IMG/VR virus record: IMGVR_UViG_3300025769_000353
Coordinates: 1-36,452 of that record
Source of the DNA: a virus
Strand: one strand, 5' to 3'
DNA: 36,452 nt
The notes under the pieces are model-generated. The model saw only the letters and a list, made by a program, of their open reading frames with translations, was not told where the DNA came from and made no database searches. Positions 687 through 16,680 of the stretch are shown here, in pieces. A program made the translations under genes and the position numbers. Each line of letters starts with the position of its first letter. Position 1 is the stretch's first letter.

Positions 687-715
687 ATTATACTATGCCT
701 TTAAGGATTTGTCAA
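687..715 (-). promoter_or_regulatory. Sigma-70-type promoter, minus strand
   Basis: On the minus strand TTGACA (715-710) and TATAAT (692-687) are separated by 17 bp, a perfect consensus. Transcription would start near 680 and run toward the left edge. No long gene lies directly downstream, only the 27-aa frame and structured sequence. Confidence 0.75.
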
Positions 716-764
716 GAAAAATTTTAAACTATTTTTCTAATCCCTCCCCGAAGGGCGAAGCACA

Positions 765-1079
765 TTACTGTGCTTCTAGGTGGTCTACTAAGTTCTGTAA
801 ATCAGTTTTAGTAGCTTTGACAATGCTAGGAACTGAAATTCCAAGTGCTGTCTCAATTTGAGCAACGAGTTCTCCTTTTAGAACAACAGGCTCACCTGCT
901 TTTGTCACTCTTGGTTGTGCTTTGTAGACACCTTCTCTACTTAGCTTAGCAATTACACTTCTTGTGTTTTTGCCTAATTTTTCTGCTAGTGCCTCAACTG
1001 TGTCTCTTGTTGGGTTAGCTTCGTAAGCTGAAACCATCATGCTTACATCTTTTTCTGAATAATTTTTTACTGTTGCCAT
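765..1079 (-). CDS. Small helix-turn-helix-like protein of marine phage type
   Basis: A 104-aa protein starting MATVKNYSEKDV. I chose the ATG at 1079 because AAGGAGAAG sits just upstream; a longer frame to 1127 lacks such a site. Residues about 5-55 have the pattern of a resolvase or HTH-type helix bundle (ALAEKLGKNTRSVIAKLSREG), which suggests DNA binding. Similar short proteins are widespread in marine myo- and siphophages, from memory, and their function is unknown. It stands alone behind its own strong promoter, with the stop codon inside a perfect 8-bp stem (GAAGCACA/TGTGCTTC). A regulatory role is inference. Confidence 0.75.
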   Translation of the reverse strand: MATVKNYSEKDVSMMVSAYEANPTRDTVEALAEKLGKNTRSVIAKLSREGVYKAQPRVTKAGEPVVLKGELVAQIETALGISVPSIVKATKTDLQNLVDHLEAQ

Positions 1080-1136
1080 TTCTTCTCCTTTTGCTTTTGT
1101 AAATATTCTTAGTAAATTCCATTTCATAATATAAAT

Positions 1137-1165
1137 ATTATAATTGATTTTTAATCTTTTGTCAA
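1137..1165 (-). promoter_or_regulatory. Sigma-70-type promoter for the HTH-like gene
   Basis: On the minus strand TTGACA (1165-1160), a 17-bp spacer and TATAAT (1142-1137) form a perfect consensus. The start site would be near 1130, giving a leader of about 50 nt before the ATG at 1079. Confidence 0.8.
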
Positions 1166-1175
1166 GTAGTTTTTT

Positions 1176-1311
1176 AAAATACTTTGAGCAAGGTGTCAGA
1201 TTTGTACTGACTTTTACTGACAGAGGCAGGAGTTGAACCTGCTACTTCTCCATGATGAGTGTGCTTCCGTAGTCACTTCTCTGTCACGAGCTACCCTGCT
1301 CAAAGTATTTT
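1176..1311 (-). repeat. 15-bp inverted repeat enclosing the tRNA-like element
   Basis: AAAATACTTTGAGCA at 1176-1190 is the exact reverse complement of 1297-1311. In RNA this forms a 15-bp stem closing the tRNA-like fold. Its 3' side is followed by an A/T-rich run, so it may also act as a terminator or protect the RNA ends. Confidence 0.8.
1219..1285 (-). ncRNA. tRNA-like RNA element
   Basis: On the minus strand a 7-bp acceptor-like stem pairs GACAGAG (1285-1279) with CTCTGTC (1225-1219). The 3' side directly follows a perfect T-arm: GCAGG, loop TTCAACT, CCTGC. A D-arm-like GTG...CAC hairpin containing GG follows the 5' side. The element is only 67 nt because the anticodon-arm position is short (CTC/GAG with a 6-nt loop), and no CCA is encoded. 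I therefore call it tRNA-like rather than a functional tRNA. It could be a degenerate tRNA, a tRNA mimic or an attachment-site relic. Confidence 0.5.
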
Positions 1312-1336
1312 GTCTTTATTTCCAAAAGATACATAT

Positions 1337-1365
1337 ATTATACTGGGCTTTTATACATTTGTCAA
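1337..1365 (-). promoter_or_regulatory. Sigma-70-type promoter for the tRNA-like RNA
   Basis: On the minus strand TTGACA (1365-1360), 17 bp, TATAAT (1342-1337), a perfect consensus. The predicted start near 1330 lies just upstream of the inverted repeat that encloses the tRNA-like fold, so this looks like a dedicated RNA gene. Confidence 0.75.
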
Positions 1366-1742
1366 ACGTTAGCGTGAAAAATCATAAATTAACTGACGCG
1401 AATTCTCGGGGGCCGGACGCGAAACCTCGACGGGGTCGCCCAAAATTTCCTCTTTTTTCGTAGCAAAACTCTTGCAAACTTTAACAAATTATGATAAACT
1501 ATGAATAAGATTATTATACCCGCGCAAACTCTGCATAATTAGACTACTTCTCACTTTAGCACTCGCGCGGGGCGTTTTTCGTACTTTCACTACTTAGTTT
1601 CAGCACTGCACTCGGCGCAAGCGTCGCGAACCCCGACCAAAAGCCTCTGTTTATGCGGGGTTGCTCTACCTGTTTTGCAGCGCCCCCTACCTCGGTGAAA
1701 GACCTGTCTATCTAAAAAGAGGGATTAATTTGCGCGTACGTA
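1366..1742. other. Gene-free, GC-rich hairpin region
   Basis: No plausible gene on either strand. It is clearly richer in G and C than the coding regions and holds several stems: CCCGCGC/GCGCGGG (about 1519-1577, followed by CGTTTTT) and AACCCCG/CGGGGTT (about 1629-1662). Its composition resembles 2102-2280. Function unknown; it may belong to the replication or packaging control region. Confidence 0.4.
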
Positions 1743-1771
1743 TTGACAGGCGAGAAAAGGTGTGATAAAAT
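1743..1771 (+). promoter_or_regulatory. Sigma-70-like promoter, plus strand
   Basis: TTGACA (1743-1748), 17 bp, TAAAAT (1766-1771). It is followed at once by CGGCGC and a tight hairpin, an arrangement repeated at the 4717 promoter (TAAAATCGGCGC). No plus-strand gene lies directly downstream. Confidence 0.45.
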
Positions 1772-1783
1772 CGGCGCCAAAAT

Positions 1784-1799
1784 GGGGACAAGCGTCCCC
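1784..1799 (-). terminator. Hairpin after the 47-aa gene
   Basis: A perfect 6-bp stem GGGGAC/GTCCCC with a 4-nt loop lies just beyond the stop of the 1806-1949 gene and is followed on the minus strand by ATTTT. It may end that transcript. On the other strand it sits at the start of the 1743 promoter's transcript, so it could be an operator or attenuator instead. Confidence 0.5.
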
Positions 1800-1805
1800 G
1801 TTTGG

Positions 1806-1949
1806 TTATCTAAGTTTGCTTAGAACCCAGAGCATTGTGTCGATGTTTGCTCTTTGTAGAGAGTTGACAATTGTCTGCTCTACGCCTCTTGCTTCTAGCA
1901 TTTTGATAACTTCTTTTTTGGTTGGTTTTTTAGCTTTTTCGTTTTTCAT
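1806..1949 (-). CDS. 47-aa hypothetical protein
   Basis: A short gene with ATG at 1949, a strong AAGGAG 6 nt upstream, a good promoter and a terminator-like hairpin behind it, so I am fairly sure it is real. The Lys-rich N-terminus (MKNEKAKKPTKKEV) is followed by a predicted amphipathic helical part (IKMLEARGVEQTIV). No family recognised. Its promoter overlaps the left flank of the DnaA-box-like repeats, which makes a role near replication or early regulation plausible but unproven. Confidence 0.7.
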   Translation of the reverse strand: MKNEKAKKPTKKEVIKMLEARGVEQTIVNSLQRANIDTMLWVLSKLR

Positions 1950-1975
1950 TTCGTTCTCCTTAATTTGTATATACT

Positions 1976-2003
1976 ATTATAGGGATTTTTAAACGCGAGT
2001 CAA
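1976..2003 (-). promoter_or_regulatory. Sigma-70-type promoter for the 47-aa gene
   Basis: On the minus strand TTGACT (2003-1998), 16 bp, TATAAT (1981-1976). It diverges from the plus promoter at 2073, with the DnaA-box-like repeats in between. Confidence 0.75.
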
Positions 2004-2023
2004 GGAATATCTTGTGCAATTTC

Positions 2024-2054
2024 TGTGGAAATTCTGTGGAAATCCTGTGGATAA
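2024..2054 (+). other. Candidate replication origin: three phased DnaA-box-like repeats
   Basis: TGTGGAAAT (2024), TGTGGAAAT (2035) and TGTGGATAA (2046) repeat with exactly 11-bp spacing, one helical turn. The third is a perfect consensus DnaA box (TTATCCACA on the other strand). An AT-rich tract (2055-2072) follows, and divergent promoters flank the array. This is the classic layout of a DnaA-dependent origin or a DnaA-regulated promoter. That the host DnaA binds here is inference. Confidence 0.55.
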
Positions 2055-2072
2055 GTTTTTTTAAAATTTTTC

Positions 2073-2101
2073 TTGACACCCGATCAGATTCGTGTTATAA
2101 T
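2073..2101 (+). promoter_or_regulatory. Sigma-70-type promoter, plus strand
   Basis: TTGACA (2073-2078), 17 bp, TATAAT (2096-2101), a perfect consensus, immediately right of the DnaA-box-like repeats. It could supply an origin-activating or primer transcript, since no good gene follows. Confidence 0.75.
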
Positions 2102-2281
2102 AGACCTGGGACAGAACTTTTAAAAGCGCGCGGCGGGGCAAGAAAGACTTTGCTTTTGCACTTAGCTTTTGCACTGGCGCAGATGCGCACTTCATTTTAT
2201 CACTTCACTACTCTACTCGGCGCGCAAGCGCGCGGGTGTCTCTGAAAGTCGGGCAGGGGGTATTCCCCAAAATCATTGGCG
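2102..2281 (+). other. Gene-free transcribed stretch with direct and inverted repeats
   Basis: Downstream of the 2073 promoter I see no credible gene. There is a tandem direct repeat of GCTTTTGCACT (2152 and 2165, 13-bp period), a GC-rich hairpin around 2219-2236 (CGCGC/GCGCG) and GGGG-TATT-CCCC near 2256-2268. It may be a structured RNA or part of the origin. Confidence 0.35.
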
Positions 2282-2351
2282 AAAAAAAAGTGAGAGGGGA
2301 AGTCCAGCAATCAGTTTGATATAATCTCGCTGTATGAGTCCTTTCCCTCTC
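2282..2351 (-). terminator. Long-stem intrinsic terminator, minus strand
   Basis: On the minus strand GAGAGGGAAAGGACTC (2351-2336) pairs imperfectly with GACTTCCCCTCTC, followed by eight T's (2289-2282). It would end the transcript from the 2590-2618 promoter after about 300 nt. Confidence 0.6.
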
Positions 2352-2418
2352 GGGGTGGGTTTGGGGGTGTGTGTCCTCTGTTTCTTGCCCTTTCGCCCGT
2401 TATTGATTTTGAGTTCAT
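2311..2418 (-). CDS. Possible 35-aa protein within a short transcript
   Basis: A short transcription unit runs from the 2590-2618 promoter to the 2282 terminator. Within it one frame is open for 87 codons (2574-2311), Arg/Asn/Glu-rich and protein-like. The only in-frame ATG is at 2418, giving a 35-aa product that begins MNSKSITGERAR; its ribosome-binding site is weak and the stop lies in the terminator loop. The unit may instead be a non-coding RNA of about 300 nt. Confidence 0.3.
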   Translation of the reverse strand: MNSKSITGERARNRGHTPPNPPREGKDSYSEIISN

Positions 2419-2589
2419 TCTCTGTATTGCTCTTAGAAAGTTCGATTTCTCGGTTCTATCTTTTGAGCGTTGGAGGTGGTCGAATCTTCTAGCGTTCCTT
2501 TTCAGGTCGGTTGAGTCGGTTGCCCTTCTCGGTTGCCTTGCTTGGAGTTCCTTCCGATTTCGGTTGTTTCCCTCTCAATCAATATAAAT

Positions 2590-2618
2590 ATTATAAGGGT
2601 TTTTTGTTATCGTGTCAA
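2590..2618 (-). promoter_or_regulatory. Sigma-70-type promoter, minus strand
   Basis: On the minus strand TTGACA (2618-2613), 17 bp, TATAAT (2595-2590), a perfect consensus. It lies just beyond the end of the small membrane protein gene and starts a separate short unit. Confidence 0.75.
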
Positions 2619-2631
2619 CAATTATTTTAAA

Positions 2632-2802
2632 TTAATTTAAAAATATTTCTTCGATTATTATGCCACCCATAGCAACAAAAAAAGCGATAACAAAAAAAGA
2701 AATAACAAGGGCAGAAAATAAATCTTGTTTTTTATCTTGCATTAAAACAAGAGAAAAAAGAAAAATAATAATATAAAAAATAATCATTCCTAGCGTTTCC
2801 AT
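2632..2802 (-). CDS. 56-aa protein with two membrane segments
   Basis: The product starts METLGMIIFY. Two hydrophobic helices (about residues 5-21 and 30-51) are separated by a charged turn (MQDKKQD), and the tail is short and acidic. Size and hairpin topology resemble class II-type holins, but many small phage membrane proteins look like this. A TATAAT (2814-2809) ends 6 bp before the ATG, so the message may be leaderless; no ribosome-binding site is visible. It was too short for routine ORF calling but has clear membrane-protein composition. Confidence 0.6.
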   Translation of the reverse strand: METLGMIIFYIIIFLFSLVLMQDKKQDLFSALVISFFVIAFFVAMGGIIIEEIFLN

Positions 2803-2839
2803 ATTGCGATTATATCATAAAAAAATATTTTTAAAAGTC

Positions 2840-2868
2840 TTGACATTTTCGGCGTTTCGTGTTATGGG
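2840..2868 (+). promoter_or_regulatory. Promoter-like element TTGACA-17-TATGGG
   Basis: TTGACA (2840-2845), 17 bp, TATGGG (2863-2868). The same TTGACATTT...CGTGT...TATGGGGT pattern recurs at 5628. It reads into the left inverted-repeat arm. The -10 is poor for sigma-70, so this is either a weak promoter or a repeated phage-specific element. Confidence 0.4.
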
Positions 2869-2886
2869 GTTTAAGAAATCGTGCGT

Positions 2887-2974
2887 GGTTTAAGATATGT
2901 TTATTTGTTTATCTGTTTAGATATAAACATATCTTAAACCATGTTTCCCTTTTTGTCAAGTTTTGTGACAAATA
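2887..2974. repeat. Left arm of a long inverted repeat
   Basis: The arm contains an 18-bp perfect palindrome half (GGTTTAAGATATGTTTAT, 2887-2904) and its complement (2923-2940), then an inner part matching TTTTTGTCAA and TTTTGTGACAA. The whole arm, including the loop, is found in inverted orientation at 4568-4655 with only a few differences. Each arm is therefore itself a cruciform. Confidence 0.85.
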
Positions 2975-3027
2975 TTTTTAGTGATTTCTCATACCATAAA
3001 ATGAGCAAAAAGTCAAGTCTTTTTTTG

Positions 3028-3058
3028 AAAAAAAAATTTGGGGGATTTCTCCCCCAAA
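3028..3058 (-). terminator. Intrinsic terminator of the cassette operon
   Basis: On the minus strand a perfect 9-bp stem TTTGGGGGA/TCCCCCAAA (3058-3050 and 3045-3037) with a 4-nt loop is followed by a run of T's (3036-3028). It lies 20 bp after the last gene of the operon. Confidence 0.85.
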
Positions 3059-3077
3059 CCATCGCGGGATTATGCGA

Positions 3078-3317
3078 TTATGAAATTTCGCCTTTTGAGA
3101 ATTGGCAGTTTAATTGTTTATGCCATTCTGTATAGAGGAAATCCCAATTTTTGCGAATATATCGAAAAAGATTTTTATATGGTTTCTCCTTATAAATTCT
3201 TCTTTCTCTCCCATTCTCCGAATACATGATTTTACAAAAATCATAAAATAAATTTCTTTCCATTTCTGAATCAAAATATTTATTTTTAATATTAAAATTA
3301 AATTCTAGCTGTTTCAT
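3078..3317 (-). CDS. 79-aa hypothetical protein
   Basis: Last gene of the four-gene minus operon. Its ATG overlaps the stop of the phosphatase gene (ATGA), and AAGGGGGT serves as ribosome-binding site. The protein is charged and aromatic-rich (FRYIRKNWDFLYTEW), with no signal peptide or membrane segment. I do not recognise the family. Translational coupling to the HAD phosphatase suggests a shared job. Confidence 0.7.
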   Translation of the reverse strand: MKQLEFNFNIKNKYFDSEMERNLFYDFCKIMYSENGRERRIYKEKPYKNLFRYIRKNWDFLYTEWHKQLNCQFSKGEIS

Positions 3318-3838
3318 ATTTTACCCCCTTTTGAATTATAATAATCAGCGTCATAAACATGAGCATATCTTAAAGTCTGAATCTCATCTCTATTTTCTTT
3401 CGAATCATCAACAAAAGCAACAAAGGGATTTTTTATCTCATTGTGTCTTAAAATAAAATCAACAAGTTGAGATTTTTTCAATTTCCCTGTTGCTTGTGTG
3501 TTGCTTGGTGGTCTTTGTATTAAGTAATGATATTTAACACCCCTTAAAAATAAAACCAAAGGCAACCACCATTTTTTTGCCCTTGCTGTTTGAATAACAA
3601 CCATAAAATTTTTATCATAATAATAATTTTTTATGGAATAAAACAAAGGCAATTTTTTTGTTAAAAGATTTCTAAAAAATGAATTATCCTTAATGAATTT
3701 TTTTAAGTCATAATCTTTTTCATAAGTTCCCACCGATTCAAAAATTGTATTGTCAATATCAAAAACAATTATATTTGTTGGTGGCGATTCATTTTTCTGA
3801 ATCGCCCTTAATTTCCATCGTAATAAGTTATTTTTCAT
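3314..3838 (-). CDS. HAD-superfamily phosphatase
   Basis: A 174-aa protein with the HAD signature. The nucleophile motif I DxD is at D27/D29 in VFDIDNTI, the motif II Thr is T84 in VVIQTAR, a motif III lysine is near K121-K122, and the motif IV acidic pair is D144/D145 in FVDDSKEN. The small size with no large cap resembles the 3'-phosphatase domain of polynucleotide kinases and phage 5'-nucleotidase-like HADs; the substrate cannot be told from sequence. AAAAGGGG precedes the ATG. It overlaps the GIY-YIG-like gene by 11 nt, so the nuclease and phosphatase are probably made together. DNA or RNA end processing is a reasonable inference. Confidence 0.8.
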   Translation of the reverse strand: MKNNLLRWKLRAIQKNESPPTNIIVFDIDNTIFESVGTYEKDYDLKKFIKDNSFFRNLLTKKLPLFYSIKNYYYDKNFMVVIQTARAKKWWLPLVLFLRGVKYHYLIQRPPSNTQATGKLKKSQLVDFILRHNEIKNPFVAFVDDSKENRDEIQTLRYAHVYDADYYNSKGGKI

Positions 3839-4226
3839 TATTTACCCCTTTTAATTTAACGGATAAATAAGCATCTTCATTGTATAATTTTTTAAATGCC
3901 ACCCTTACAAGTCCAAGCATTGAATTTGGATTCATAAAGTACCATTCTGAATAACCTCGCCCTAAATTTTTGTCTTTGAGTTGGTTATCTTTCCAATTCT
4001 TTTGGAGTAGTCCTTTTACAATATCTTCGAGGGCTTTTCCTAAAAGTGTATCAAGTTCGAGAATTACCTCGACATCTTTTTCTCGCCCTTTCCATTTTCC
4101 ACCAAAGCCAAAACCTAAAATCCTTTTTTCTAGTTGGTCTTTAGTTTCTCCGATTTTAGAAATATAATCATCAGACCTATTTTTTAAAGCTAAAACATAT
4201 AATTTCTGTTTTTTTAATCTTTGCAT
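3828..4226 (-). CDS. GIY-YIG-like (T5orf172/MUG113-type) nuclease
   Basis: A 132-aa protein. Residues 9-36 follow the GIY-YIG pattern: Y10-V-L, then K24-I-G26, then the catalytic-type Arg in EKR35I. A later E94 in SEWYFMN matches the metal-ligand Glu of the T5orf172 subfamily (typically GEWF). The first Tyr is in YVLAL and the second motif is KIG, as often seen in this subfamily. It would cut DNA, either as a homing or restriction-type nuclease or in host-DNA breakdown. The start is supported by AAGGATAAGGGA upstream. It sits inside the inverted-repeat cassette, which fits a mobile or homing role. Confidence 0.65.
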   Translation of the reverse strand: MQRLKKQKLYVLALKNRSDDYISKIGETKDQLEKRILGFGFGGKWKGREKDVEVILELDTLLGKALEDIVKGLLQKNWKDNQLKDKNLGRGYSEWYFMNPNSMLGLVRVAFKKLYNEDAYLSVKLKGVNNEK

Positions 4227-5783: not shown

Positions 5784-5812
5784 TTGACTTAAGTTCAAAA
5801 TTTTGTTATAAT
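5784..5812 (+). promoter_or_regulatory. Promoter of the terminase-curli-cyclase operon
   Basis: TTGACT (5784-5789), 17 bp, TATAAT (5807-5812). The predicted start coincides with the A of the ATG at 5820, so the first message is probably leaderless. Confidence 0.8.
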
Positions 5813-5819
5813 TCAAAAT

Positions 5820-6281
5820 ATGAAGAATGAAATATCTACAAGAATCAGTCCAGAAGGACTTGAAGTCGCCAATGCATATTTAGAGCTGGGTAATATTCCA
5901 GCAGTTTGTGTAAGATTAAAAATTGATGAAGGTGAGTGCAGTGAAATACTTGGTAAGCGAGAAGTAAAAGCTTATGTCGATCAAGTATATCTAGATAGTG
6001 GATATCGTAACCGTTTTAAATTAGCGGAAGCACTCGATGATCTTATAGATAGAAAATTAGAAGAAGCTGAAGAATCAGAAGTATACTCTAATAAAGATTT
6101 AGCAGACTTAATTCAGATGGCACACAAGATGCGAATGGATGAAATTAAAGCCCAGGCAGAACTAGAAAAAGCAAAGGCATCAAATGTTAAAAATCAAATT
6201 AATATACAAAATAATGGCGAGGTTCCTTTTGGGCAAGGTAACTATGGCGAATTAATGAAAAAATTACTTAAAGATAAATGA
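5820..6281 (+). CDS. terS: Terminase small subunit (TerS)
   Basis: A 153-aa protein. An N-terminal helix-turn-helix-like part (residues about 8-60, EVANAYLELGNIPAVCVRLK) precedes a central helical oligomerisation part (LDDLIDRKLEEAEES, KDLADLIQMAHKM) and a C-terminal tail (GNYGELMKKLL). This order is typical of phage TerS, which binds the packaging site and presents DNA to TerL. The start at 5820 lies at the predicted transcription start with no room for a ribosome-binding site, hence leaderless. The next gene overlaps its stop (ATGA). TerL is 9 kb away; the curli-cyclase genes lie between. Confidence 0.7.
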   Translation: MKNEISTRISPEGLEVANAYLELGNIPAVCVRLKIDEGECSEILGKREVKAYVDQVYLDSGYRNRFKLAEALDDLIDRKLEEAEESEVYSNKDLADLIQMAHKMRMDEIKAQAELEKAKASNVKNQINIQNNGEVPFGQGNYGELMKKLLKDK

Positions 6282-6403
6282 AACTCAACGATTTAGAAAA
6301 AGTACACCCAATGAAGCAAGTAGCTGCAGCCTCCATAATACAGGTAGTTGTACTATTTGGCATGCTTGGCTGTATGCAGATTAATCAATGGATAATTGTA
6401 TGA
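6278..6403 (+). CDS. 41-aa single-pass membrane protein
   Basis: ATG overlaps the TerS stop. Product MKLNDLEKVHPMKQV followed by a hydrophobic helix (about residues 16-33). No signal-peptidase site is obvious. Translationally coupled to TerS and at its end to a tiny 18-codon frame (ATG at 6400) leading into 6444. Unknown function; its place before CsgF and CsgG suggests membrane work during late infection. Confidence 0.55.
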   Translation: MKLNDLEKVHPMKQVAAASIIQVVVLFGMLGCMQINQWIIV

Positions 6404-6443
6404 AACTCTTTTTTAAATATTGGATATTACCGTGGAGTTACCC

Positions 6444-6746
6444 ATGGAGGAGCTAGGCGTATTTGATGTAATTGCTCAGGTAGGAGCACCTATTGCAGCT
6501 GCCCTATTTATGGGTGGTTTTATATTTCTTATCATTCGTAAAATTATGGATGATGTAGTTGGAAATACTGAAGAAGTAAAAGGTATATCTAAAATGCTAA
6601 TTACTCGTATTAAGACTATGAATAACGACATGATTAAAATAGATATGAGTGTAAGTTCCGCACTAGGGCTTACACCAGACTTAGACAAGATAGCAAGAGC
6701 AGAAAATTTTGTTGAGTCAGGGAGCATAGATGCAAGACGTGATTGA
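6444..6746 (+). CDS. 100-aa membrane protein with coiled-coil tail (holin-like)
   Basis: I chose ATG 6444 (MEELGVFDVIAQVG) because TGGAG sits 8 nt upstream; a TTG at 6420 is the longer alternative. One membrane helix (about residues 14-36) is followed by a long helix with heptad-like spacing (SKMLITRIKTMNNDMIKI). The architecture matches that of the next gene, suggesting paralogs, and is similar in kind to BhlA/XhlA-type holin-associated proteins. They lie directly upstream of CsgF and CsgG. Confidence 0.6.
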   Translation: MEELGVFDVIAQVGAPIAAALFMGGFIFLIIRKIMDDVVGNTEEVKGISKMLITRIKTMNNDMIKIDMSVSSALGLTPDLDKIARAENFVESGSIDARRD

Positions 6747-6981
6747 TGCAATACAGCAATTTGGATTTCCAATTGTAGCAATGGTCGGACTTGGGTACTT
6801 CGTGTACTTTGTTTGGACTACAATCACTGAAAAAATCGACCCAGCAATCGAAGAAATGAAAATAACTATCTTACAGTTAATCGACCAGATAAGAATGTTA
6901 GATAATGATATGATTCGACTGCAAAAGAAACTGGATACAGTTTTACAATTAAAAGAAAATGAAAGAAGAAAAACTAAATAA
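6730..6981 (+). CDS. 83-aa membrane protein with coiled-coil tail (holin-like)
   Basis: A membrane helix at about residues 12-31 (FPIVAMVGLGYFVYFVWTTI) is followed by a charged coiled coil (LIDQIRMLDNDMIRLQKKLD). LDNDMIRL mirrors MNNDMIKI in the upstream protein. The layout of a short N-terminal helix then a cytoplasmic coiled coil resembles BhlA-type holins. It overlaps its neighbours by 17 and 23 nt. A lysis role is plausible but not shown. Confidence 0.6.
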   Translation: MQDVIDAIQQFGFPIVAMVGLGYFVYFVWTTITEKIDPAIEEMKITILQLIDQIRMLDNDMIRLQKKLDTVLQLKENERRKTK

Positions 6982-7453
6982 TAGAATTTCAAATGCCGTT
7001 GTAGGAGCAATATTTGTACTGTTTTTTGTAGCAGTAACACATGACTTAAAAGCAGATGAAATCAAATTTGGATTTAAAAGCCCATCATTTAGTGGTGTAG
7101 GCACATCTTCACACTACTTAACAATTGACTCTCAAGAGATGTCAAGAAAAGACGCACTTAAAGCTGAAATAAAAGCTTTGGCAGATGCAGCAAAAAGAGA
7201 AGAAGAAAATACAACTCTCGCAAGATTTATTAAAAACTTTGAATCAAGAGTATATGCACAGTTATCAAGACAACTAGTAGATCAACTATTTGGTGAGAAC
7301 CCTGCAACGGAAGGATCATTTCAATTATTTGATAGTCTGATTACATGGACATCAGATGGCATTTCAATTACAATGACCATATTTAACGAAACTACTGGTG
7401 AAACAACTACAATCACAATTCCTATTGGCGATTTTGGTTTCCCTACTGGCTAG
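6959..7453 (+). CDS. csgF: CsgF-like curli assembly protein
   Basis: A 164-aa protein with a signal peptide (about residues 1-32, cleaved after LKA). The mature N-terminus FGFKSPSFSG matches the CsgF N-terminal segment (FQFRNPNFGG in E. coli) that inserts into the CsgG channel. The C-terminal beta-rich part (WTSDGISITMTI, ETTTITIPIG) also follows CsgF, including the conserved run of Thr near the end. In bacteria CsgF docks on the CsgG pore and helps nucleate curli at the surface. It overlaps the upstream gene by 23 nt and CsgG by 56 nt. It is longer than E. coli CsgF because of a Lys/Glu-rich insertion after the first strand. Confidence 0.85.
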   Translation: MKEEKLNNRISNAVVGAIFVLFFVAVTHDLKADEIKFGFKSPSFSGVGTSSHYLTIDSQEMSRKDALKAEIKALADAAKREEENTTLARFIKNFESRVYAQLSRQLVDQLFGENPATEGSFQLFDSLITWTSDGISITMTIFNETTGETTTITIPIGDFGFPTG

Positions 7454-8258
7454 TTGTGCAAACTGGACGCATATAGAATATATATCGCCCTGTGTAACTA
7501 ATCCAGATGGAGACTATAAAGACCTATCTACAATTATCGGAAAAGCCGAGTGTTTTTCTGGTGACGCTATAATTGAAAAACCTGTCACAAAAGCAATTAC
7601 AGAACTACCTCTGCCTTCACGCTATCCTGTGGTGGCCGTATATAAATTCGCAGATTATACAGGACAAAGAAAGAGTGTAGATGGCATAGCAAGTTTTAGT
7701 ACTGCTGTGACTATGGCTCCAGAAGCATACTTAATTCGTGCATTAAAACAATCAAATTTTTTCAGAGTAGTTGAAAGAGGTGGATTAGATAACCTTACTC
7801 GTGAAAGACAATTAATAAGACAAACAAGACAAACATTTAATGATGATACTGAGCAAAAACCACTCATTTTTGCTGGGTTAATTATCGAAGGAGGTATTGT
7901 AGATTACAATACTAACTTACTAACTGGAGGTGTCGGAGCTAGGTATCTTGGTATCGGCAACTCTAAACAATATCGTGAAGATACAGTAATGGTTTCATTA
8001 AGATTAGTTTCTGTGAGTACAGGAGAAATCTTATTAGAAATCCTTACCTCAAAAACGATACTCTCAGTGGGAGTCTCTAATGACTATTTCAGATTTATTG
8101 CTGAAGGCACAGAACTTGTAGAATTCGAAAGTGGAAACGCTATGAATGAGAGCAAGTCTATTGCTGTACAAGCGGCAATGGAAACAGCTGTGGTAGAATT
8201 AGTACACCAAGGAAGAGAGAAAGGGTACTGGAAGTACTGGGGAGAGAACAGTGATTAG
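7398..8258 (+). CDS. csgG: CsgG-like outer-membrane curli secretion channel (lipoprotein)
   Basis: A 286-aa protein with GTG start 7398. The lipoprotein signal ends in L17-A-S-C20. The family core is well conserved: VAVYKFADYTGQ, SFSTAVT, ALKQSNFFRVVER, RERQLIR, GGVGARYLGIG (177-187), VSTGEILLE and SKTILS. CsgG forms a nonameric beta-barrel that lets curlin subunits cross the outer membrane. In the constriction loop F100 matches E. coli Phe56, but the Asn55 position is Ser99 and the Tyr51 position is not aromatic (D95). There is an extra N-terminal segment of about 40 residues with two Cys (C32, C52). It overlaps CsgF by 56 nt. No CsgE is present in the window. Confidence 0.92.
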   Translation: MKQLQSQFLLAILVSLLASCANWTHIEYISPCVTNPDGDYKDLSTIIGKAECFSGDAIIEKPVTKAITELPLPSRYPVVAVYKFADYTGQRKSVDGIASFSTAVTMAPEAYLIRALKQSNFFRVVERGGLDNLTRERQLIRQTRQTFNDDTEQKPLIFAGLIIEGGIVDYNTNLLTGGVGARYLGIGNSKQYREDTVMVSLRLVSVSTGEILLEILTSKTILSVGVSNDYFRFIAEGTELVEFESGNAMNESKSIAVQAAMETAVVELVHQGREKGYWKYWGENSD

Positions 8259-8970
8259 ATTTATAATCGCAATAATGTTCGCAGGGTCAATCTATGCAGA
8301 CAATGAAATCTATATAGACCAATCAGGCGACAACGTTAATATCGACCTCGAGCAATTAGGTTCAAGCAACATGATTGGTGGTTTACAATCTGTAAACGGC
8401 TCAATGACTGCTGCTATACTTACTGGAGGAACCTGGACGCTTGATATTAATCAAATCGGAAGCTCTAATAAGTTTCTTACTGATGGAATATTAGGAAGCA
8501 ATTTTACAGGTTTCTTTGAATTTGATGGTGATAGTAACGATTTTGAATTCTCTATGGATACTACAGGATTAAATGGAGCTGACTATGTTAACGCTTTTGT
8601 TGATATAACAGGTGGTTCAAACGCATTTGATTTTGATTTTGGTGAATCATCTGCAGTTGATTACTTAGACTTTGATTTAATCATGGACGGTGACAGTAAT
8701 GATCTAGATTTTAATATAGATTCATCTTACTACACTGCTTATATAGATATCTTTGGAGATAGTAATACAATGACCTTGGATAAAACAGGGTACGGAGCTT
8801 CCTCAAGTGATGCAGGGTATTTTTACTTAGACTTAAATGGCAGTACAAATACTATTAATATAGAGCAAAGCTCTACACTCGCACTTGACTGGCTAAAAAT
8901 AGAAAGTGATGCGTCAAACAGTAACATTTGTGTTATTCAGTCTGATGGTGGTACTACCACTAGCTGCTGA
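8251..8970 (+). CDS. Secreted curlin-repeat protein (CsgA/CsgB-like)
   Basis: A 239-aa protein with GTG start 8251 preceded by GGGGAGAG. Signal peptide at residues 1-16. Curlin motif Q-x-G-x2-N appears in canonical form at Q35-L-G-S-S-N40 and again in INQIGSSN, with Q24-S-G26 just before. At least five later repeats keep G-x-x-N (GDSN, GGSN, GDSN, GDSN, GSTN) on short beta strands. Most of their Gln are replaced by Asp or other residues, making the protein very acidic. It is the likely cargo of CsgG and could form an amyloid-like beta solenoid. It overlaps CsgG by 8 nt and the FecR gene by 65 nt. Two Cys lie near the end. Confidence 0.8.
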   Translation: MIRFIIAIMFAGSIYADNEIYIDQSGDNVNIDLEQLGSSNMIGGLQSVNGSMTAAILTGGTWTLDINQIGSSNKFLTDGILGSNFTGFFEFDGDSNDFEFSMDTTGLNGADYVNAFVDITGGSNAFDFDFGESSAVDYLDFDLIMDGDSNDLDFNIDSSYYTAYIDIFGDSNTMTLDKTGYGASSSDAGYFYLDLNGSTNTINIEQSSTLALDWLKIESDASNSNICVIQSDGGTTTSC

Positions 8971-10018
8971 TATAGGCGAAATCACAGAACTTCGTGGGAA
9001 CGGTGCTGTTATAAGAGATGACACCGTTCCTGCTTTTTTAGAACAAGACATTCAACAAATGGACGATGTTCGTACAGCTAATGGGCGACTAGGAATAACG
9101 TTTATTGACGATAGTCAGGTTCGACTCACAGAGCATAGCAAACTTATAATTGATGAAGTTATCTTTGACCCTGATCCAGATAAATCAAAGATGACTATGG
9201 AATTTGCAAGTGGCACTGCTCGATTTATAACTGGTAAAATAGGACAGATTAATAAACAAAATATAAATATATCTACTCCAACAGCACAGATAGCAATTCG
9301 TGGAACAGACTTTACTGTTACCGTTGACGAGTTTGGCAGAAGTCTTGTTATACTTTTACCAGATGCAGGAGGGTTACCTAGTGGTGAGATTGTAGTTTCA
9401 ACTGCCATGGGTAGCACAATATTAAATAAACCATACCAATCCACTGTTACTACCGTTTGGGAGCAGGCACCATCAAAGTCTGTAATCTTGGATTTAACAC
9501 TGGACTTGATAGACAATTTATTAATTGTCTCACCACCAAAAAGAAATGAAGAAATCGAACAAAATACAGGACAGACTGGAAGTGATGACACTAGTAGCAA
9601 TATTCTTGACGTCGACTATCTCGCTTACGGGGAACTAGAAATAGATTATCTAGCTTATGATGATTTAGAATTTAGCGAACTTGATATAGAATATTTAGAT
9701 GTAAACTTCTTAGAAGATTTATTAGAAGTTATCGAAGAACTTGACCTACTTACAGCAGAAGACCAGCTAAACGCTAGTGTCTTTTCGCCTATAAATATAC
9801 AAGGTACTGAGTATGGTAACGATCCAACTACTCAGATTACAACTTTCGGAGATGCAGAAACTGTAACACTTATACGACAGGTCAATCAATTTGTGCAGTT
9901 GGATCTAAATGGGCAGACTGCCTACAATATAATAATAGAACAAGATGGAAAAGCTTACAACGTTATTCTTAACTCTGGTAGTGACACTACAATTACAATC
10001 CGCCAATCTGGAGGTTGA
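8906..10018 (+). CDS. Secreted FecR-domain protein with curlin-like C-terminus
   Basis: A 370-aa protein (GTG 8906, or ATG 8909). A signal peptide (about 1-21) is followed by a FecR domain (about 24-150) with the typical strands GTARFITGKI and STPTAQIAIRGTDFTV. Next come a spacer, an acidic Leu/Tyr repeat region (about 235-285, twice DYLAY) and a C-terminal segment with curlin-like Q-x-G units (EQDGKAYN, IRQSGG). Bacterial FecR-domain proteins act in the periplasm, the founding member as a signal relay in ferric citrate uptake, and from memory they often neighbour CHASE2 proteins. The curlin-like tail suggests co-assembly with the upstream protein or export through CsgG. No transmembrane anchor or anti-sigma domain is present. 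Confidence 0.8.
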   Translation: MMRQTVTFVLFSLMVVLPLAADIGEITELRGNGAVIRDDTVPAFLEQDIQQMDDVRTANGRLGITFIDDSQVRLTEHSKLIIDEVIFDPDPDKSKMTMEFASGTARFITGKIGQINKQNINISTPTAQIAIRGTDFTVTVDEFGRSLVILLPDAGGLPSGEIVVSTAMGSTILNKPYQSTVTTVWEQAPSKSVILDLTLDLIDNLLIVSPPKRNEEIEQNTGQTGSDDTSSNILDVDYLAYGELEIDYLAYDDLEFSELDIEYLDVNFLEDLLEVIEELDLLTAEDQLNASVFSPINIQGTEYGNDPTTQITTFGDAETVTLIRQVNQFVQLDLNGQTAYNIIIEQDGKAYNVILNSGSDTTITIRQSGG

Positions 10019-10409
10019 TATACCTTGGGACTGGGAACAGATTCGAGCAGATGCAGAATTAATTAAAAACTCAAAAACAAATATATTGCCAGACTTTGAG
10101 TTTACTGAAATGGCAAACGATGCACAATACAATATTTTTTGGACACTACAAGCACTCGATGTTTATACTACTTATCGTGGACTTAAATATAGTTGTGTAT
10201 ACGAATCAAACCCTATAGTTGGAGATAATCCAGACTTGGCAAGGCTAGTAACACACAAGACTTTAGCCTTACACCCAATTGCAATTTTACAGCCACTACG
10301 AATACTAACAAAACAAGAAGTGCAAAATTATAATGTATTTTATACTACAGTAGTTTATAATAATTATACTGTTTGGAATAGAGCGAGGAAAGTATGCAAA
10401 AAACGATAA
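9945..10409 (+). CDS. Secreted or envelope protein, DUF5658-like
   Basis: A 154-aa protein with signal peptide MEKLTTLFLTLVVTLQLQSA. The core follows the pattern ALDVYTTYRGL then ESNPIVGDNP then HKTLAL, like DUF5658 membrane proteins, whose function is unknown. It overlaps the FecR gene by 74 nt and the cyclase by 16 nt, so it is tied to both. It may be an accessory to the FecR/CHASE2 sensing pair; this rests on position only. Confidence 0.6.
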   Translation: MEKLTTLFLTLVVTLQLQSANLEVDIPWDWEQIRADAELIKNSKTNILPDFEFTEMANDAQYNIFWTLQALDVYTTYRGLKYSCVYESNPIVGDNPDLARLVTHKTLALHPIAILQPLRILTKQEVQNYNVFYTTVVYNNYTVWNRARKVCKKR

Positions 10410-12175
10410 CAATAATAATATTTATGGGATTCTTAATTTGGAATCCTGGTATCATGCAAAGAGTCGAACTAATTGGTTATGACTATCTAATTATGAATAC
10501 CGAACCAGTACAAAACGAGAACATTCTTATAGTAGATATAGATGAAGAAACAGTAAGTACTTATGGGGGCTGGCCAGTACCAAGAAGTTATTATGGCGAT
10601 GCTATTATGGCAACTCAAGCAGTTGCTGGTATTACAGTACTTATGCCAAACAAAGACCTTCGAGGAATGAATCAAGATGAATACTTCACACGCAGACTTG
10701 AAGTAAGACCAACTGTCCTTGCTAGTGCAGCATCGACACAAGTAACTGGAACTAATCCTCATGTAGGAACTGCCCAGTTAGGAGAGGATCCACTACCATG
10801 GCTATATCAATACCCAGGAATTATACCTACAGAACCCACGCTGGAGTCAAAGGCAAAGGGACTAGGAGTAGTAACCGCTACACCGGAAATAGACGGGGTT
10901 ACTCGTCGTATTCCCCTAGTCGTAAACGTGCAGTCAAAACTTTACCCAACTTTCGCCTTGGAACTCTTAAGAGTCGCAGTAGGCGATCCTTCGTACCAGC
11001 TAAAAACAACACCAGAAGGCGTTTCTTGGGTTAGAATACCAAACTACCCATTAATGATTACAGATGCGAATGGTCGTATCTTTCTTAACTGGAATACTAA
11101 ATTTTACAAACAAACAGGACTGGAGTTTTTGGAGAATCCAATCGATGCTCCCTTTGTTATATTCGGCACGACTGCAGAGGGTATAACAAACCCTGTGCCG
11201 ACCCCTGCAGGGGCTAAATACCCACATGAAATACAAGCTAACATTCTTCATAATCTTATCACAGGTACTGCTCCTTCTATACCTACTTGGGTATTCGGGG
11301 CAGAAATCGCAGGAACATTCTTCGCCTTATTATTACTTGCATTTGCAACCAGATCCGTATGGTTCTCGTTGCCCTCATTGTTATTAATAGTTAGTGGGTC
11401 AATTTATGGAAGCCTAAAATTATATGAATCTTCTTATTTGTTTGACGTTAGCGGAATCGTAATACTCTCGGTTTTGTTTTGGGCATACCATTCATTCCTG
11501 AGTTTCCTTTCCGAGTATCGTCAGAAACTTCGAATCAAACAACAATTCGGGACATACGTAAGTCCAGACCTTGTCAAAAAATTACAAAAAGACCCAACAT
11601 TACTGAGATTGGGTGGGGAGACCAAACGACTAACTTTTCTTTTTTCTGATATTAGAGGATTCACTCCAATTTCAGAAAAATACCAAAAAGACCCACAGGG
11701 ACTTACAGCACTTATAAATAGATTCCTTGACAATCAAACACAAATTATACTAAAACATGGTGGCACCATAGATAAATATATGGGAGACTGTATAATGGCA
11801 TTTTGGGGTGCGCCACTTGATGATGAACAACAAGTTGAAAATGCAACTAAGGCAGTTCTTGAAATGAAAGAATCGCTTGGAGAATTAAATGAAACACTTA
11901 AAGAGGAGGGCCTTGATCAAATCAATACAGGCGCTGGAATCAATACAGGGCTATGCGTGGTTGGCAACTTTGGCAGTAGTAATCGCTTCGATTATAGTGT
12001 CCTTGGGGATTCTGTCAATCTTGCTGCTCGACTAGAATCTAGTTGCAAAGAGTATGATACTGATTTAATCATATCTGAGTACAGTTTAGTTGACGGTTAT
12101 GATTACAAATTCCTTGACGAAGTTACGGTCAAAGGAAAGTCGGAACCCGTCAAAATATATACCATACAAAAATAG
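10394..12175 (+). CDS. CHASE2-domain class III adenylate cyclase, membrane bound
   Basis: A 593-aa protein. N-terminal membrane helix (about 4-18), then a periplasmic CHASE2 sensor (about 25-295, with VDIDEETVSTYGGWPVPR), three membrane helices (about 299-370), a short linker helix and a class III cyclase domain (about 405-590). All catalytic residues are present: metal-binding D419 (FSDIRGFT) and D465 (YMGD), adenine-specifying K461 (DKYMGD) and D539 (VLGDSVN), transition-state N542 and R546. The K/D pair predicts ATP, hence cAMP. GAGGA precedes the ATG. It is the last gene of the operon, ahead of a terminator. A complete receptor-type cyclase in a phage late operon is very unusual. Host cAMP-CRP could be the target. 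Confidence 0.92.
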   Translation: MQKTITIIIFMGFLIWNPGIMQRVELIGYDYLIMNTEPVQNENILIVDIDEETVSTYGGWPVPRSYYGDAIMATQAVAGITVLMPNKDLRGMNQDEYFTRRLEVRPTVLASAASTQVTGTNPHVGTAQLGEDPLPWLYQYPGIIPTEPTLESKAKGLGVVTATPEIDGVTRRIPLVVNVQSKLYPTFALELLRVAVGDPSYQLKTTPEGVSWVRIPNYPLMITDANGRIFLNWNTKFYKQTGLEFLENPIDAPFVIFGTTAEGITNPVPTPAGAKYPHEIQANILHNLITGTAPSIPTWVFGAEIAGTFFALLLLAFATRSVWFSLPSLLLIVSGSIYGSLKLYESSYLFDVSGIVILSVLFWAYHSFLSFLSEYRQKLRIKQQFGTYVSPDLVKKLQKDPTLLRLGGETKRLTFLFSDIRGFTPISEKYQKDPQGLTALINRFLDNQTQIILKHGGTIDKYMGDCIMAFWGAPLDDEQQVENATKAVLEMKESLGELNETLKEEGLDQINTGAGINTGLCVVGNFGSSNRFDYSVLGDSVNLAARLESSCKEYDTDLIISEYSLVDGYDYKFLDEVTVKGKSEPVKIYTIQK

Positions 12176-12207
12176 TACTTGACTTTCGGTACTATTTTTG
12201 GTATAAT
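12168..12207 (+). terminator. Intrinsic terminator whose loop carries the next promoter
   Basis: A perfect 11-bp stem AAAAATAGTAC/GTACTATTTTT (12168-12178, 12189-12199) begins at the cyclase stop. The 10-nt loop holds TTGACT (12179-12184), and TATAAT follows 17 bp later (12202-12207). One element therefore ends the curli-cyclase operon and starts the next. Confidence 0.8.
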
Positions 12208-15094: not shown

Positions 15095-15330
15095 CAATAC
15101 CAACAGTTGATAAAAGAAAAGCATGGCTAGACGAAATTTCGTTATTTACCAGTCAAGCTCTTATGAGAATTACACAAAAAGAATTAACTGGTACAGAAAT
15201 TTCCTCCACAGAGGCTAAGTATGCAAAACTATGTAGTGCTTACCTCTACCTCTACAAGCTGGCAGAAGAAAATCAAATTCTTAGACCAGATGACCCAGAC
15301 AACCCTTTTAATTTTGAGACACTCCATTGA
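15091..15330 (+). CDS. 79-aa hypothetical protein preceding TerL
   Basis: All-helical, acidic product beginning MTIPTVDKRKAWLDEISLFT and ending DDPDNPFNF. It overlaps its neighbours on both sides by 4 nt. Its position directly before TerL is where TerS often sits. The size and lack of HTH make it a weaker TerS candidate than 5820, though a TerL partner role is possible. Confidence 0.65.
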   Translation: MTIPTVDKRKAWLDEISLFTSQALMRITQKELTGTEISSTEAKYAKLCSAYLYLYKLAEENQILRPDDPDNPFNFETLH

Positions 15331-16628
15331 TTGAGATAAGTAGAGCAGATATAGAGTCTACTTATCTTATGGAGCTAGATTCAGAACAACGTTTTATCAA
15401 ACTTCCGATAGAAGGATACATGGACTTATTGGGCATAGACCCCAACACTTCACAGACTGCAATTATCAATGCAGTAAATAACCCTAAATATAGATTTGTA
15501 TGTGCTGCCGTTTCCCGAAGGCAGGGCAAAACTTATATATCAAATATAATCGGACAACTTGTTTGTCTAGTTCCTAATAGTCACGTACTATTAATGTCCC
15601 CTAACTATTCTCTATCGCAAATCTCTTTTGATTTGCAGAGAAGTTTGATAAAACACTTTGATTTAGAAGTAATTCGTGATAACGCAAAAGATAAAGTTAT
15701 AGAACTTAGTAATAATTCTACTATAAGAATGGGTTCAATCAATCAAGTAGACTCAGTGGTGGGTAGAAGTTATGACCTTATCATATTTGATGAAGCCGCA
15801 CTAACAGATGGAAGAGATGCCTTCAATGTGGCACTACGTCCTACACTAGATAAAGATAATTCTAAAGCAATCTTTATCTCTACTCCAAGGGGTAGAAATA
15901 ATTACTTTGCAGAATTTTATTACAGAGGTTTTTCAGACGAATTTCCAGAATGGGCAAGTATAAAAGCAACTTGGCATGAGAATCCTCGTGTTTCTGAAGA
16001 CGACATTAAAGAAGCAAAAAAGACAATGTCAGAATCTGAATTCCAACAAGAGTACATGGCGGACTTCAATGTGTACGAAGGACAAATCTGGGCATTTAAT
16101 CATGAGAAATGTATAGCAGATTTAACTGATTTTGATACTTCTAAAATGGATGTGTTTGCTGGGCTTGACGTGGGGTATAAAGACCCTACAGCTTTTTGTG
16201 TGATTGCTTATGATTGGGACGAAGAAAAGTACTATGTAGTAGATGAGTATTTAGACTCAGAAAGAACAACAGAACAACATGCTGCAGAAATACGAAAGTT
16301 AATAAATAAATGGGACATAGATTATATTTATATAGACTCTGCTGCACAACAAACAAGATATGACTTTGCACAAAACTATGATATATCCACTCTTAATGCC
16401 AAAAAATCTGTTCTTGACGGAATAGGACAAGTAGCAGGAGTAGTTGATAACGATCAACTTATAGTACATCAAGGATGTAGAGAAGTACAAATATGTCTTG
16501 ACCAATATCAATGGGATCCAAATCCGAATTTAATGAAAGAAAGACCGAAACATGATGGAGCATCGCACATGGCCGATGCTATAAGATATGCTATATATTC
16601 ATTTGAAACCTCAGCGACATCGTTTTAA
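15327..16628 (+). CDS. terL: Terminase large subunit (TerL)
   Basis: A 433-aa packaging motor. ATPase domain: Walker A-type S63-RRQGKT69, Walker B IIFD155-E156, coupling motif FISTPRG. RNase H-like nuclease: D281 in GLDVGYKDP, D337 in YIDSAA, D417 in HMADAIRYA. It pumps DNA into the prohead and cuts it. It is coupled by overlap to the preceding gene. TAA is followed at once by a promoter. Confidence 0.95.
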   Translation: MIEISRADIESTYLMELDSEQRFIKLPIEGYMDLLGIDPNTSQTAIINAVNNPKYRFVCAAVSRRQGKTYISNIIGQLVCLVPNSHVLLMSPNYSLSQISFDLQRSLIKHFDLEVIRDNAKDKVIELSNNSTIRMGSINQVDSVVGRSYDLIIFDEAALTDGRDAFNVALRPTLDKDNSKAIFISTPRGRNNYFAEFYYRGFSDEFPEWASIKATWHENPRVSEDDIKEAKKTMSESEFQQEYMADFNVYEGQIWAFNHEKCIADLTDFDTSKMDVFAGLDVGYKDPTAFCVIAYDWDEEKYYVVDEYLDSERTTEQHAAEIRKLINKWDIDYIYIDSAAQQTRYDFAQNYDISTLNAKKSVLDGIGQVAGVVDNDQLIVHQGCREVQICLDQYQWDPNPNLMKERPKHDGASHMADAIRYAIYSFETSATSF

Positions 16629-16650: not shown

Positions 16651-16680
16651 TTGACTTTTGGTGTGAACTTTTGTTATAAT
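16651..16680 (+). promoter_or_regulatory. Promoter of the head-gene operon
   Basis: TTGACT (16651-16656), 18 bp, TATAAT (16675-16680), 19 bp before the HNH start. ACACC just after the TerL stop can pair with GGTGT at 16660, a weaker version of the terminator/promoter overlap at 12168. Confidence 0.75.

Follow-up and report, generated by a model that had tools for sequence, protein, structure and literature searches.

The locus and its phage

The window analysed here, a stretch of 36,452 bases taken whole, is an IMG/VR record of a marine phage that is T5-like, an assignment that follows from a terminase large subunit (TerL) ~48% identical and a portal protein ~40% identical to those of cultured T5-like phages. 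Between the gene for the terminase small subunit (TerS) and that for TerL, as the original prediction implied, lies an operon (5820-12175) that encodes, in order, TerS, a pair of small membrane proteins, CsgF and CsgG, proteins of curlin-like, FecR-domain and DUF5658-like type, and a CHASE2 cyclase (Table 1). All the genes named by that prediction are present, at or near the positions it gave, and its family labels for TerS, CsgF, CsgG, FecR, CHASE2 and the cyclase agree with profile matches that are far beyond chance. Starting at the first small membrane gene and ending at the cyclase, neighbouring genes overlap by 17, 23, 56, 8, 65, 74 and 16 nt, so the claim that each gene overlaps the next holds along the operon with a single exception, a 16-nt gap that separates a 41-aa ORF from the gene after it. 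A small gene at 13335-13535 matches DUF5872 (1.5e-10), and an Rfam search of the window gave no match.

Table 1. Genes and promoters of the curli-cyclase operon and the terminase genes, with window coordinates.
Feature	Position	Strand	Match or remark
Promoter P1, sigma70-type (TTGACT-17-TATAAT, TG-extended), before TerS	5784..5812	+	11/12 consensus matches
Terminase small subunit, TerS	5820..6281	+	phrog_3802, 1.6e-40
41-aa ORF	6278..6403	+	overlaps TerS by 4 nt; no significant Pfam match
Small single-TM coiled-coil protein, first copy	6420..6746	+	phrog_18771, 6.3e-23
Small single-TM coiled-coil protein, second copy	6730..6981	+	phrog_18771, 1.4e-26
CsgF, pore-neck protein with signal peptide	6959..7453	+	PF10614, 1.5e-18, above cut-off
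CsgG, outer-membrane pore lipoprotein	7398..8258	+	PF03783, 5e-49
Curlin-like secreted repeat protein (CsgA/B-like)	8251..8970	+	same position as HTVC008M gp016
FecR-domain periplasmic protein	8906..10018	+	PF04773, 4.6e-12
Secreted or membrane protein, DUF5658-like; fills the variable slot that separates FecR from the cyclase	9945..10409	+	PF18902, weak
CHASE2 + class III adenylate cyclase	10394..12175	+	PF05226, 1.1e-30; PF00211, 2.4e-19
Promoter P2, sigma70-type, directly after the cyclase stop, facing the genes towards TerL	12179..12207	+	
Terminase large subunit, TerL, T5-like	15327..16628	+	PF03237; ~48% identity to cultured T5-like phages

The promoter that had been proposed ahead of the operon is present upstream of TerS (P1) and is conserved in most relatives; P1 and P2 are both near-perfect sigma70 sites, and strict sites of this type number 13 in the window against a mean of 2.2 in shuffled sequences. 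When the spacer is left free to vary, a site matching 11-12 of the 12 consensus positions stands beside the TerS start in 7 of 11 distinct sequences, the window included, while the remaining 4, in whose upstream sequences the start was chosen mechanically, have lower promoter scores. A P2-like site follows the cyclase in nearly all of the TerL-bearing relatives compared. Overlapping genes behind a promoter kept in most relatives bear out the claim of a single operon, and TerS and the module genes apparently form one transcription unit.

Several further elements were seen nearby. A third promoter like P1 and P2 (TTGACTT...TTTTGTTATAAT) lies on the plus strand at 16651-16680, just before the 16699 ORF and the portal gene, and a perfect sigma70 consensus is found on the minus strand within the cyclase gene (11991-12018). 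An inverted repeat of 13 pairs (12167-12200) overlaps P2 and is possibly an operator or a terminator. The left arm (window 687-2618), which by its sequence is divergently transcribed, carries on its minus strand five strict promoters of the sigma70 type (687, 1137, 1337, 1976 and 2590), several of them inside AT-rich direct repeats.

The export half

The two proteins encoded before CsgF have counterparts in the phages HTVC008M and Melnitz: the first is like HTVC008M gp011 and Melnitz 97 in sequence and position, and the second, which also weakly matches a holin (phrog_4898, 0.0084), corresponds to HTVC008M gp012 and Melnitz 98. The published module has a "histidine kinase" at this position, which we find to hold single-TM proteins of 83-115 residues; as none of these in the window, HTVC008M or Melnitz matches a kinase at E up to 1, we reject a histidine kinase before CsgF.

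The proposal of a CsgG/CsgF pore with a secreted curlin-like cargo is well founded as to the pore, for which both families are clear (Table 1). The CsgG lipoprotein has the lipobox LASC with Cys20 and matches E. coli CsgG structures at ~2.4e-44. The curlin-repeat label is weaker: the cargo protein has six regular G[DS]SN-type motifs, but it scores 16 bits against PF07012, below the cut-off of 20.7. The second-curlin genes of HTVC008M and Melnitz score above that cut-off.

No CsgE gate was found in 28 phage records, many of them fragments, and the published viral module is likewise without CsgE (PMC9599517). A CsgG pore standing open without its gate could serve import, admitting nutrients or cofactors while FecR and the cyclase adjusted host metabolism, as has been suggested (PMC7029224, PMC9599517), and the absence of CsgE from those records fits such a role. 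Import would nevertheless leave the curlin-like cargo and CsgF unexplained, and bacterial CsgG pores are known to secrete outward; we give this explanation very little credence.

The FecR-domain protein and the slot after it

The FecR-domain protein comprises an N-terminus that reads as a signal peptide, the FecR domain, an acidic linker and a C-terminal beta domain. A model built from a 67-row alignment has a pLDDT of 72, with the acidic linker at low confidence, and its N-terminal beta domain is similar to the domain with which PupR acts in cell-surface signalling (TM 0.52 of the target). Pfam at E up to 1 matches FecR alone, with no anti-sigma domain. The earlier description of this protein as a FecR-curlin fusion is rejected: no part of it matches curlin repeats, and all that it has is a conserved ITIxQ C-terminus, which is found in 70 of 78 distinct FecR tails.

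The gene that follows is present as described, but its DUF5658-like label is weak, the match of 17.9 bits lying below the cut-off of 25.2; homologues occur in T5-like and some other contigs. Among carriers the slot after FecR holds a second curlin gene, a DUF5658-like gene, a cell-wall hydrolase, a DNA methylase or nothing. A gene for a secreted cell-wall hydrolase lies between FecR and the cyclase in three of the loci compared (L135:7117-7569, L138:10219-10671 and L145:12602-13078), with a PF07486 match in L135 and L145 and an ORF in L138 identical to that of L135. The gene in this position at L160:4849-6543 encodes a C-5 cytosine DNA methylase (PF00145), to which the ORF at L164:6965-8659 is near-identical by eye.

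These genes bear on the suggestion that the module times release, with CsgG-CsgF and the small TM proteins acting in the manner of a pinholin or secretin to depolarise or open the envelope at lysis. Pinholin lysis acts at the inner membrane, whereas CsgG is an outer-membrane pore, and a lysis function leaves the curlin-like protein, FecR and the cyclase unexplained. The weak holin match of the second small TM protein, the hydrolase genes just described and the apparent co-transcription of the operon with TerS speak for release timing, which was proposed for Melnitz (PMC9004378), although the hydrolase is found in few contigs. We regard it as improbable.

The CHASE2 cyclase and its bacterial relatives

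The last gene of the operon encodes, as had been predicted, a CHASE2 cyclase, and its catalytic residues are intact: the CHASE2 domain is joined to a class III cyclase domain that has the catalytic metal, purine and transition-state residues (D419, K461, D465, S535, N542 and R546 in the window), which places it among the CHASE2 class III cyclases. Five of the six positions are near-invariant across 134 distinct phage cyclases, D419, K461, D465 and R546 being identical in 134/134 and N542 kept in 133/134, and the S535 position is S or T in all but one. Conservation of this kind, read from the alignment, implies selection for cyclase activity. The one sequence with S for N542 is that of Melnitz (L002), which by alignment is also the one sequence with D at the second purine position, and its activity may be altered.

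No cNMP-binding protein that might act as a phage-encoded cAMP receptor was found in the 28 phage records, many of them fragments, so any reader of cAMP would probably be the host's. Membership of Pycsar was rejected, since PADLOC matches only the cyclase domain and none of the other eight proteins. Two sets of apparent phage relatives were also set aside: the Acinetobacter "phage" cyclase matches (L004) sit amid bacterial housekeeping genes, and the Salmonella "phage" record with CsgG (OR851715.1) is an unverified fragment of 1,499 bases.

In bacteria without curli, FecR and CHASE2 genes are neighbours. In a single bacterial class, within genomes where both domains were sought, a FecR domain lies within 5 kb of 34 among the 99 CHASE2 genes listed, where 0.87 would be expected, and these CHASE2 proteins need not all be cyclases. 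Of the 80 bacterial cyclases closest to those of the phages, 17 have FecR within 1.5 kb and none has CsgG or curlin within the flank, up to 10 kb; the three CsgF loci in 289 genomes of the sampled class are without FecR and cyclase within 10 kb. Pairing without curli in bacteria suggests that phages took a FecR-CHASE2 pair already present in bacteria and linked it to curli. A broader proposal, that this is a general bacterial outer-membrane-to-cAMP signalling pair, wired by phages to the curli pore such that export is read as cAMP, seems to us unlikely. In S. meliloti, CHASE2 cyclases depend on NsrA, a beta-barrel of the outer membrane, to raise cAMP (PMC13001267, PMC7529298).

Distribution and history of the module

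CsgF and CsgG were reported in pelagimyophages in 2020 (PMC7029224) and, together with a lysis hypothesis, in Melnitz in 2022 (PMC9004378); Wittmers et al. (2022) described the full set, FecR and adenylate cyclase included, and its transfer between viral families, and phage curli modules are reported to be widespread in ocean viromes (PMC9599517). The original prediction was thus right that CsgG-type genes had been noted before in marine phages and mistaken that the linked signalling half appears new: HTVC008M and Melnitz carry it, the HTVC008M cyclase is already annotated as an adenylate/guanylyl cyclase, and FecR and cyclase are discussed together in PMC9599517. By tblastn, HTVC008M and four Melnitz isolates have matches to the window's cyclase and FecR (34-38% identity, 99% of the query) and to its CsgG (44-47% identity, 77% of the query); both phages share the module gene order of the window. 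What is new here is a third carrier lineage, T5-like, in which the curli-cyclase module lies between TerS and TerL. Further carriers are found among relatives of HTVC023P-type podoviruses (L087) and in a lineage of T4-like phages (L001, L002 and L082).

Three viral scans, each keeping the best 80 of 408-597 confirmed relatives, gave 240 loci, a sample that favours close relatives and under-samples distant carriers. We counted a CsgG locus as fully flanked when it had at least 1.5 kb upstream and at least 5.5 kb downstream. Within these best 80 relatives per scan, a cyclase accompanies CsgG in 71/71 fully flanked loci: 33/33 of those selected by cyclase, as selection would dictate, 34/34 of those chosen by CsgG and 4/4 of those chosen by TerL. 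CsgF, CsgG, curlin, FecR and cyclase are all held by the same 33/33, 34/34 and 4/4 loci, and the cyclase is retained even where it lies on the opposite strand. The TerL scan finds a cyclase upstream of TerL in 17 of the 18 loci that extend 4.5 kb or more upstream. The locus L225, whose TerL is closely related (83%), is without the module upstream and has other genes at 1442-4024, several of which read as secreted. Co-occurrence of CsgG with a CHASE2 cyclase is found throughout the fully flanked loci, and the concern that the two halves might be carried independently and in random places is answered only in part: their presence is coupled, but their histories are partly separate.

The separation appears in pairwise distances, which for CsgF, CsgG, curlin and FecR correlate at 0.89-0.92 with one another, whereas those of the cyclase correlate at only 0.66-0.68 with each of the four. 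It appears also in quick trees made on a subset of sequences. The cyclase tree places 17 of 18 T5-like cyclases in one clade (support 91); in the CsgG tree the T5-like proteins are not one clade, and five changes of the T5 label are required, of which starred branches force four. Taken together, these distances and clades suggest that the curli half, FecR included, was exchanged around a resident cyclase. On this evidence module presence is coupled, and descent is not fully so.

A cyclase with a history unlike that of the curli half, and on the opposite strand in some contigs, could be an independent gene for host reprogramming that happens to lie in the operon, the amyloid serving the cell surface alone, where its fibres would aggregate cells ("sibling capture") or bar superinfection. 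Both surface roles have been proposed (PMC7029224, PMC9599517). The cyclase is, however, never absent beside CsgG in the fully flanked loci listed, bacteria without curli also pair FecR with CHASE2 genes, and those who described Melnitz observed no clumping of cells in their cultures (PMC9004378). We think it unlikely that the operon makes a surface amyloid with an unrelated cyclase alongside.

A proposed function

Our preferred reading, to which we assign a probability of roughly 0.4, is that the phage combines type VIII (curli) secretion with a cAMP cyclase in one module, through which the infected cell would export amyloid while the cyclase may read the state of the periplasm. It starts from the gene content and order, the promoters, the conserved catalytic residues and the bacterial gene pairing, all established from the sequence. 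During infection, alongside the packaging genes, the curlin-like protein would leave through CsgG-CsgF and form amyloid on the infected cell, with the FecR-domain protein remaining in the periplasm and reporting the state of the pore or cargo to the CHASE2 domain. On receiving this signal the cyclase would alter host cAMP for as long as export continues. The likely benefit to the phage would be control of the surface and physiology of the infected cell, be it aggregation, a superinfection barrier or timing.

In favour of this joint model, the module gene set and order are conserved across the fully flanked loci, the modelled FecR protein is PupR-like, and the NsrA-CHASE2 route of S. meliloti sets, by analogy, a precedent for signalling from a barrel in the outer membrane by way of CHASE2 cyclases. 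The partly separate history of the cyclase argues against a finely co-evolved FecR-CHASE2 contact. Also against the model are the lack of a cNMP-binding protein and of CsgE in the phage records searched, curlin repeats that score below cut-off, the S at N542 in Melnitz and the absence of clumping in its cultures (PMC9004378).

A third phage lineage with the module, always with an intact cyclase in fully flanked loci, makes it relevant to ocean phages broadly. A FecR partner of the kind that pairs with CHASE2 narrows the question to whether the state of export controls cAMP, and if it does, the common and poorly understood bacterial FecR-CHASE2 pair would gain a likely job.

Comparison with known systems

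The nearest known system is the type VIII secretion (T8SS) module of pelagiphages (PMC9599517; HTVC008M gp011-gp019; Melnitz 97-104), which shares with the window the order of two small proteins, in place of the published kinase, followed by CsgF, CsgG, curlin, FecR, a variable slot and adenylate cyclase. The pelagiphage module belongs to a myovirus or an HTVC023P-type podovirus and has a second curlin gene after FecR, whereas that of the window belongs to a T5-like phage, lies between the terminase genes and has a DUF5658-like gene in this slot. With the bacterial curli operon csgBAC/csgDEFG the window has in common the CsgG lipoprotein pore, CsgF and a curlin-like cargo, to which it adds FecR and the cyclase; CsgE was not found. 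The FecR/PupR cell-surface signalling regulators share with the window's protein the FecR domain and, as modelled, a PupR-like fold, but the window's protein is secreted and Pfam detects no anti-sigma domain in it. Finally, NsrA and the cyclases CyaD1, CyaD2 and CyaK of S. meliloti likewise combine a beta-barrel of the outer membrane with CHASE2 cyclases in a single signalling route (PMC13001267, PMC7529298), with the difference that NsrA, a predicted beta-barrel, is a plant-signal receptor in a bacterium, whereas the pore of the window is CsgG.
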